Source of the DNA: Promethearchaeota archaeon
Lineage (GTDB): Archaea > Asgardarchaeota > Lokiarchaeia > Sigyniarchaeales > SOKP01
Direction: 5' to 3'
Assembly (NCBI GenBank): GCA_016839745.1
Contig: JAEOTS010000157.1
Coordinates: 1 to 64,000 of the forward strand
DNA: 64,000 nt
In this document: positions 21,017-22,990 of the stretch, piece after piece
Position numbering within the stretch: the first letter of the stretch is position 1
Layout: each line of letters starts with the position of its first letter
Program-made: the position numbers and the translations under genes
The notes under the pieces: generated by a model
Database searches by the model: none
What the model saw: only the letters and a program-made list of their open reading frames with translations
What the model was told of the DNA's origin: nothing

Positions 21017-22990
21017 ATGTTAAAAATTGAATCAATAGATAGCGGTTTTAAGCTGTATTATAAGGACTATTTTATTTTAGAACATTCCAACCAAAATCCG
21101 TGTGTAAAAATTGGGAGTGGGAAAGGAAAATTCAAATCACATCACGGTCACTTTAAAATAAAAGAAAAAGATGTTGTTGAACTACAGCTTCGAGAGTATG
21201 AAATATTAAGTCAAGAAGACAATAAAATTGAAATGGCGTTTAGAGCCGGAGAAAATATGCTTAATATCTCGTATAGCATAATTGAAGATCGCCTAGAAAT
21301 TAGATCTTTGTCGAAAAATATAGATATCAATAGATTTTGGCTTAAGATACGGGCAAATGAAAGTGAAGCAATATACGGATGTGGAGAACAATTTTCTGAA
21401 GTAAATTTAAGAGGAAAAAAAGTCCCTTTATGGGTTGAAGAACAAGGCGTAGGACGAGGTGATCCTCCTATAACAGGTGATTGGTATACAACTTATTTTC
21501 CTCAACCAACCTTTGTTTCGTCAGAAAACTATTATTTCCACAGTGAGAGCTTCTGTTATGCTGTGTTTGATTTTACTCATCCTGAGTACCACGAGTTATA
21601 TTTCTGGAATATCCCAGATAAAATTATAATTGGAAAGTATCAAACTGCTCTTGATACTGTCTCTCATCTTTCAAAATATTTAGGAAGGCAACCAGAATTA
21701 CCTGAATGGGTTTATGATGGAGTATGGTTGGGGATACAAGGTGGAAAGAATATTGTTATGGAAAAAATAAGAAAGAGTTTAGAGAAAGGGGTAAGCATTG
21801 GAGCCGTATGGTGTCAAGACTGGCAAGGAGTGAATATTATTGGGCCGACTAAAAGGTTGCTATGGAACTGGGAATACGATGATATATTGTATCCGGATTT
21901 ACCAGCATTCATAAAGAACCTTAATAGTGAGGGGATAAAATTTCTTGGATATATCAATTCTATGCTTGCTCCTAACGGAAATCAACATAGAGAAGCTATT
22001 GAAAAAGGATTATGTATCAAGGATCAAAATGGAAACGCCTATATTATTAAAACTGATAGTGGAGATAAAATTTTGCTAGATCTCAGTAATCCTGATACTC
22101 TTAAATGGTTAAAGGGCGTAATAAAAGAGAACATGATAAATATCGGATTATCTGGTTGGATGGCTGATTATGGAGAATATCTTCCAACTAAAGTTGTGTT
22201 ACACTCCGGAGAGGATCCCAAGGACTTTCATAATAAATACCCTGTAATCTTTGCAAAAACTAATTTGGAAGCACTAGAAGAAGCCGGGAGGTTAGGTGAT
22301 ATAGTGTTTTTCACAAGAGCGGGTTATTCTCATCTATCACAATATACAACCCTATTATGGGCTGGAGATCAACTTGTTAATTGGAGCATGCATGATGGAT
22401 TACCAACAGTAATTGTTGCGGGAATCTCGTCAGGAATTTGTGGAATAGGGTATTATCATTATGATATTGGTGGTTTCCATTCATTGGATAATATTTATAG
22501 AGATAAAGAGATTTTCATGAGATGGGCTGAAATGGCCGTTTTTACAATGACAATGCGAACTCACGAAAGCATTAGACCATACGATAATTGGCAATTTGAT
22601 TCTGATGACGAAACTCTTGAATTTTTTGCAAAAATGAGTCAAAGATTTTCTTATTTAAAACCATATTTGCAATATATATCAAATGAGTATATAAAAAAGG
22701 GATTTCCACCCATTAGAGCATGTTATCTCCACTATGAAAATGATCCTAAACTTCATAAAATCAAATATCAATATCTTTTTGGTCAAGATTTGTTGGTAGC
22801 CCCTGTAATAAAGCCAAATTCAAGTGAAGGGGAAGTTTATTTTCCGGATGATATTTGGATTCATATTTGGTCAGGGATAGAATTTAAAAAAGGTGTTAAA
22901 AAAGTTAAAGCTCCTATAGGACAACCTCCGGTTTTTTATCGAAAAGATTCAAAATTTTCCGAGTTATTCTGTAAATTAAAAGATGTATAG
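21017..22990 (+). CDS. GH31 glycosidase, sulfoquinovosidase (YihQ)-like
   Basis: GAVWCQDWQGVNIIGPTKRLLWNWEYDDILYP, GWMADYGEYLPT, RAGYSHLSQYTTLLWAGDQLVNWS, MRTHESIRPYDNWQFD, LHYENDPKLHKIKYQYLFGQDLLVAPV, APIGQPPVFYR; matches YihQ block by block from memory. Start ATG 21017 or TTG 21008. Confidence 0.85.
   Translation: MLKIESIDSGFKLYYKDYFILEHSNQNPCVKIGSGKGKFKSHHGHFKIKEKDVVELQLREYEILSQEDNKIEMAFRAGENMLNISYSIIEDRLEIRSLSKNIDINRFWLKIRANESEAIYGCGEQFSEVNLRGKKVPLWVEEQGVGRGDPPITGDWYTTYFPQPTFVSSENYYFHSESFCYAVFDFTHPEYHELYFWNIPDKIIIGKYQTALDTVSHLSKYLGRQPELPEWVYDGVWLGIQGGKNIVMEKIRKSLEKGVSIGAVWCQDWQGVNIIGPTKRLLWNWEYDDILYPDLPAFIKNLNSEGIKFLGYINSMLAPNGNQHREAIEKGLCIKDQNGNAYIIKTDSGDKILLDLSNPDTLKWLKGVIKENMINIGLSGWMADYGEYLPTKVVLHSGEDPKDFHNKYPVIFAKTNLEALEEAGRLGDIVFFTRAGYSHLSQYTTLLWAGDQLVNWSMHDGLPTVIVAGISSGICGIGYYHYDIGGFHSLDNIYRDKEIFMRWAEMAVFTMTMRTHESIRPYDNWQFDSDDETLEFFAKMSQRFSYLKPYLQYISNEYIKKGFPPIRACYLHYENDPKLHKIKYQYLFGQDLLVAPVIKPNSSEGEVYFPDDIWIHIWSGIEFKKGVKKVKAPIGQPPVFYRKDSKFSELFCKLKDV

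Follow-up and report, generated by a model that had tools for sequence, protein, structure and literature searches.

Does a Lokiarchaeal genome encode the means to break down sulfoquinovose (SQ)? The question is raised by a GH31 gene on a 64,000-nucleotide stretch of DNA from a Promethearchaeota archaeon (here called the window), which an earlier note, made from the sequence alone, had taken for a sulfoquinovosidase (SQase). Sulfoquinovose is the sugar of the plant sulfolipid, and few organosulfur compounds are more abundant; to our knowledge, the pathways that degrade it have so far been described in bacteria only. A review of January 2026 states that no SQ degradation pathway has been characterised in archaea. 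Judged by title and abstract, none of the open-access papers that name SQ together with Lokiarchaeia or Asgard archaea deals with SQ breakdown in these organisms; work elsewhere may exist.

The reading favoured here, with a probability of about 85%, is that the gene encodes a cytoplasmic retaining SQase, the entry enzyme of a three-gene cassette for sulfoglycolysis of the sulfo-TAL type. The best explanation of the locus is an archaeal sulfo-TAL cassette, made up of known kinds of enzyme in a domain of life for which no such pathway has been described. Neither the archaeal host nor the cassette around the gene had been recognised in the note. If conserved in this Lokiarchaeal order, the cassette would give Asgard archaea a part in sulfur cycling in anoxic sediments, and lipid sugars of plants or algae would become likely carbon sources for them.

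The GH31 Enzyme

The gene occupies positions 21017–22990 on the forward strand (ATG at 21017, stop at 22990, 657 amino acids), exactly as the earlier note had placed it; an in-frame TTG at 21008 is a possible alternative start. In a phmmer search of the PDB, the product matches the SQase of Priestia (Bacillus) megaterium (BmSQase, 8r56) first (E = 1e-197) and Escherichia coli YihQ (5aed) second (7e-190). Further SQases follow (6pnr, 4e-179; 5ohs/5ohy, about 1e-153), while the best non-SQase GH31 protein, of the YicI type, reaches about 1e-40. The NCBIfam model for YihQ, PRK10426, gives 799 bits, its cut-off being 553. By these scores, the YihQ-like sequence blocks pointed out in the note are real and far beyond chance.

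The AlphaFold model (pLDDT 91.5, pTM 0.92) is weaker at residues 271–280 (mean pLDDT 65). At the level of the whole fold, the model superposes on the BmSQase–SQ aziridine complex with a TM-score of 0.98 at 1.4 Å. In a structure search, the top 23 matches are all SQase chains, and the next GH31 structure has a TM-score of 0.74. Among GH31 proteins, the enzyme is thus nearest to the characterised SQases. Sequence, structure, catalytic and sulfonate-binding residues, and an adjoining sulfofructose transaldolase and probable SQ isomerase together bear out the SQase assignment, and the protein very probably frees sulfoquinovose. No signal peptide is visible, which fits with action in the cytoplasm. 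Known SQases have kcat/KM values of about 1e5 per M per s (PMC11968277).

Residue equivalences were taken from an alignment with E. coli YihQ (from NC_000913) and about 50 homologues. The catalytic pair comprises the nucleophile D384 and the acid/base D451, equivalent to D405 and D472 of YihQ, the former of which is catalytic (PMC11968277). The pair of pocket glutamines is kept as well (Q241 for Q262 and Q267 for Q288). In YihQ, we take R301, W304 and Y508 to be the sulfonate contacts; these numbers agree with the residues of the E. coli sequence. The Arg and Trp of this triad, predicted correctly in the note, are present as R280 and W283. Its third member did not hold up: the Tyr of the LHYE motif, to which the note had assigned the role, is conserved but is another residue. 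In YihQ the sulfonate Tyr belongs to a DIGGY motif, and at this position the window enzyme has Phe (F487 in DIGGFHSL, for Y508 in DIGGYTTL).

This Phe is shared by the nearest Lokiarchaeal homologues and by many others, bacterial ones included, which are biochemically uncharacterised. The Y508 position is here treated as accessory rather than defining for SQases of the YihQ type. In sister Lokiarchaeal enzymes, the sulfonate Arg is changed to Gln as well, so strict conservation of the sulfonate pocket does not extend to the whole group.

Comparison with YihQ, the GH31 enzyme of the sulfo-EMP pathway, gives 43% identity, with the catalytic Asp pair, the Arg/Trp sulfonate clamp and both glutamines shared. 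The differences are the Phe for Y508 and the partner genes, which in the window are of the sulfo-TAL type rather than a kinase and an aldolase. SQase-like GH31 enzymes of Thermotogota and Spirochaetota (L038–L053) belong to the clade of the window enzyme, and in some loci (L051–L053) an SftI-like gene adjoins them; they differ in having Gln at the R301 position and in their bacterial hosts. This Gln extends across a large sister group of SQase-like proteins from other Lokiarchaeia, Spirochaetota and Thermotogota (L075–L083, L037–L053), whose genes often adjoin those for SftI or the transaldolase. Other pocket variants in SQase-like GH31 proteins are GQRW..L and IERW..E.

The Adjoining Transaldolase and Probable Isomerase

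Upstream, at 18990–19658 on the forward strand, lies a gene for a 222-residue protein of family PF00923 with a predicted Schiff-base lysine, Lys88. By orthology, its product would be a sulfofructose-specific transaldolase (SF-TAL, also SftT or SqvA). Its best match in the PDB is BmSF-TAL of P. megaterium (8bc3; 299.9 bits, E = 1e-88), with 63% identity, and K88 aligns to K89. In BmSF-TAL, Lys89 is the residue that forms the Schiff base (PMC12890257). The next transaldolase in the PDB scores 166.8 bits and FSA about 70 bits, and an ordinary fructose-6-phosphate aldolase or transaldolase was rejected because SF-TAL outscores both by so wide a margin (300 against 167 and 70 bits). In a draw of 197 genomes from the phylum, scores are bimodal: orthologues reach at least 313 bits and all other proteins at most 171, and the orthologues are limited to the order of the window genome. 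No close relatives were found on plasmids, where all matches stay below 60% identity (top about 43%) and are mostly annotated as ordinary fsa.

Between the two genes, at 19673–20989 on the forward strand, a TTG-initiated frame encodes 438 residues of a probable, divergent member of the SftI/SqvD family of isomerases, which convert sulfoquinovose to sulfofructose. Its sole NCBIfam match is the SftI model NF048012 (E = 3.5e-67), at 227 bits and under the cut-off of 700; a sequence search of the PDB gave no match. The AlphaFold model (pLDDT 83) resembles L-arabinose and L-fucose isomerases (best TM-score about 0.82), and the Lokiarchaeal and Thermotogota sequences, when aligned, all share E280, D282, H319, H412 and H413. 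The family match and the predicted fold make the conversion of SQ to sulfofructose the probable function of this protein.

The same three enzyme types occur in the sulfo-TAL system of P. megaterium (BmSQase, BmSF-TAL and SqvD/SftI), which also provides the nearest solved structures (45% identity for the window SQase, 63% for the transaldolase). The window differs in its archaeal host, its divergent isomerase and the Phe for Tyr in the sulfonate pocket, and no SlaB, mutarotase or known exporter was found with its cassette.

The divergence of the isomerase, the replacement of Y508 by Phe and the several pocket variants in relatives (QQQW, GQRW, IERW) could also be read as signs of a different substrate. 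The GH31 protein would then be an α-glycosidase for some other 6-modified sugar, for example a sulfofucose-type or 6-acidic glycoside, and its neighbours would process the matching ketose. This is quite improbable in view of the intact Q241, Q267, R280 and W283, the 63% identity of the transaldolase to the characterised, SF-specific BmSF-TAL, and the TM-score of 0.98 between the modelled SQase and BmSQase.

Linkage, Conservation and Origin of the Cassette

The three genes follow one another in the order TAL–SftI–SQase, with gaps of 14 bp between the first two and 27 bp between the last two, and this order recurs at many Lokiarchaeal loci. All three are present in 18 of 98 relatives, and each pair co-occurs (TAL–SftI, p = 9e-14; TAL–SQase, p = 4e-11; SftI–SQase, p = 8e-14); these values are optimistic, since the presence sets were taken by hand from gaps in the scores and kinship among the 98 relatives is uncorrected. 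In one relative assembled as a single contig of 6,035,313 bp (G076), all three genes occur but do not form a single triplet: about 6 kb separate TAL from SftI, and the SQase gene lies about 1.2 Mb away.

High cross-domain similarity of the genes at the locus, and an estimated contamination of 5.8% for the bin, might suggest bacterial DNA binned into an archaeal MAG. Such an origin is extremely improbable and was rejected. The cassette genes recur with flanking synteny in separately assembled Lokiarchaeota MAGs. The relatives that public records name are Lokiarchaeota MAGs (e.g., Hel_238_bin105, LW30_13, ABR11, CSMAG_616 and DZG_bin1.240) and one Prometheoarchaeum MAG (CSMAG_2442). The cassette genes are also found on long contigs and in the 6.035 Mb single-contig genome. 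Furthermore, 25 Asgard SQases, nearly all of them Lokiarchaeal, form one clade (support 94/96), which itself argues against contamination and fits a single acquisition.

In relatives, a sulfatase gene (PF00884) recurs near the triplet (L072–L075, L078, L115, L119), and GH2 and GH4 genes are found in some loci, hinting at a wider use of sulfated glycans.

Proposed Pathway and Neighbouring Genes

What the computations show is which enzymes these are, their key residues and folds, and that their genes are linked and co-occur; from this we infer the substrates, flux and transport of the following scheme. SQ-glycerol or another SQ glycoside would be imported, and the cytoplasmic SQase would release SQ from it. 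The SftI-like isomerase would convert SQ to 6-deoxy-6-sulfofructose (SF). SF-TAL would then cleave SF via a Schiff base on Lys88, releasing sulfolactaldehyde (SLA), and hand the glycerone unit to glyceraldehyde 3-phosphate, yielding fructose 6-phosphate.

Downstream, at 23102–24304 on the forward strand, is a gene for a fused ComDE-like enzyme, a TPP-dependent protein resembling sulfopyruvate and phosphonopyruvate decarboxylases. It starts 111 bp behind the SQase gene, and its close orthologues occur mostly in genomes with the triplet (six of eight, p = 0.001). Neither ComA nor a PEP mutase, which could have given the enzyme a role in coenzyme M or phosphonate metabolism, turned up in the genome. 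It could be imagined that the pathway continues through the ComDE-like enzyme, from SLA via sulfolactate and sulfopyruvate to sulfoacetaldehyde. Synteny makes this unlikely. In two relatives (G006 and G015), the block MCM–B12 subunit–LarA–HpaB–ComDE–MFS–MeaB–creatininase-like–GPH is present and the triplet is not part of it. The window has the triplet in the place that LarA and HpaB take in this block; in G010, it lies between MFS and MeaB. G010, the closest genome with the triplet and rated 100% complete, lacks a ComDE-like orthologue, and the top-scoring family for the window protein is phosphonopyruvate decarboxylase, below its cut-off. The ComDE-like enzyme was therefore mostly rejected as the next step. 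As the triplet appears inserted into a resident block, the gene is probably a resident neighbour outside the cassette.

The GPH-family sugar:cation symporter gene of this block (27929–29344, forward strand; PF13347, TIGR00792) belongs to the same superfamily as YihO and YihP and is a possible candidate for the importer of SQ glycosides. It is kept in the resident block even where the triplet is missing, and neither a mutarotase nor a specific SQ importer was identified in the genome. Further downstream, at 48844–54711, lie genes that by eye resemble a hexuronate pathway (UxaE-, UxaC- and UxuA-like, an SDR and a zinc alcohol dehydrogenase).

The Fate of Sulfolactaldehyde

A search of the window genome, which is 89% complete, gave neither a dehydrogenase nor a reductase dedicated to SLA; one ALDH lies away from the cassette. 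Related genomes offer two candidate endings. Neither of the enzyme subfamilies concerned (best matches 34% for the YihU-like and 39% for the AOR subfamily), nor the Mem_trans carrier of the loci that bear them, was found in the window genome.

The first is a YihU-like dehydrogenase, a candidate SLA reductase, whose gene adjoins that for the transaldolase in six genomes of the order (G022, G063, G065, G067, G072 and G076); family scores alone do not split SLA reductases from related 3-hydroxyacid dehydrogenases. One such gene lies beside SF-TAL at L109:7895–8767, with relatives in L078 and L111–L114. The second is a distinct subfamily of aldehyde:ferredoxin oxidoreductases (AOR), present in five genomes (G010, G025, G030, G039 and G048) and clearly set apart by score (at least 945 bits, against at most 463 for all other AORs). 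A ferredoxin-like subunit accompanies it, and four of the five genomes add a LarA-like protein. In G025 and G048, the AOR gene lies between those for TAL and SftI; in G010, about 14 kb separate it from the triplet. This module is a candidate for ferredoxin-linked oxidation of SLA.

The YihU-like and AOR sets have no genome in common, and within the 98 relatives both are confined to genomes with SF-TAL. Tentatively, the order may have its own version of sulfoglycolysis with interchangeable endings for SLA, namely reduction by the YihU-like enzyme, or oxidation to sulfolactate by AOR together with a LarA-like racemase. If so, the tungsten-dependent AOR ending would tie the breakdown of sulfosugars to ferredoxin-driven syntrophic metabolism. 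The ferredoxin–AOR(–LarA-like) module can be seen at L115:7969–11566, L120:4956–8605, L134:8379–11929, L135:3409–5716 and L136:6952–10601.
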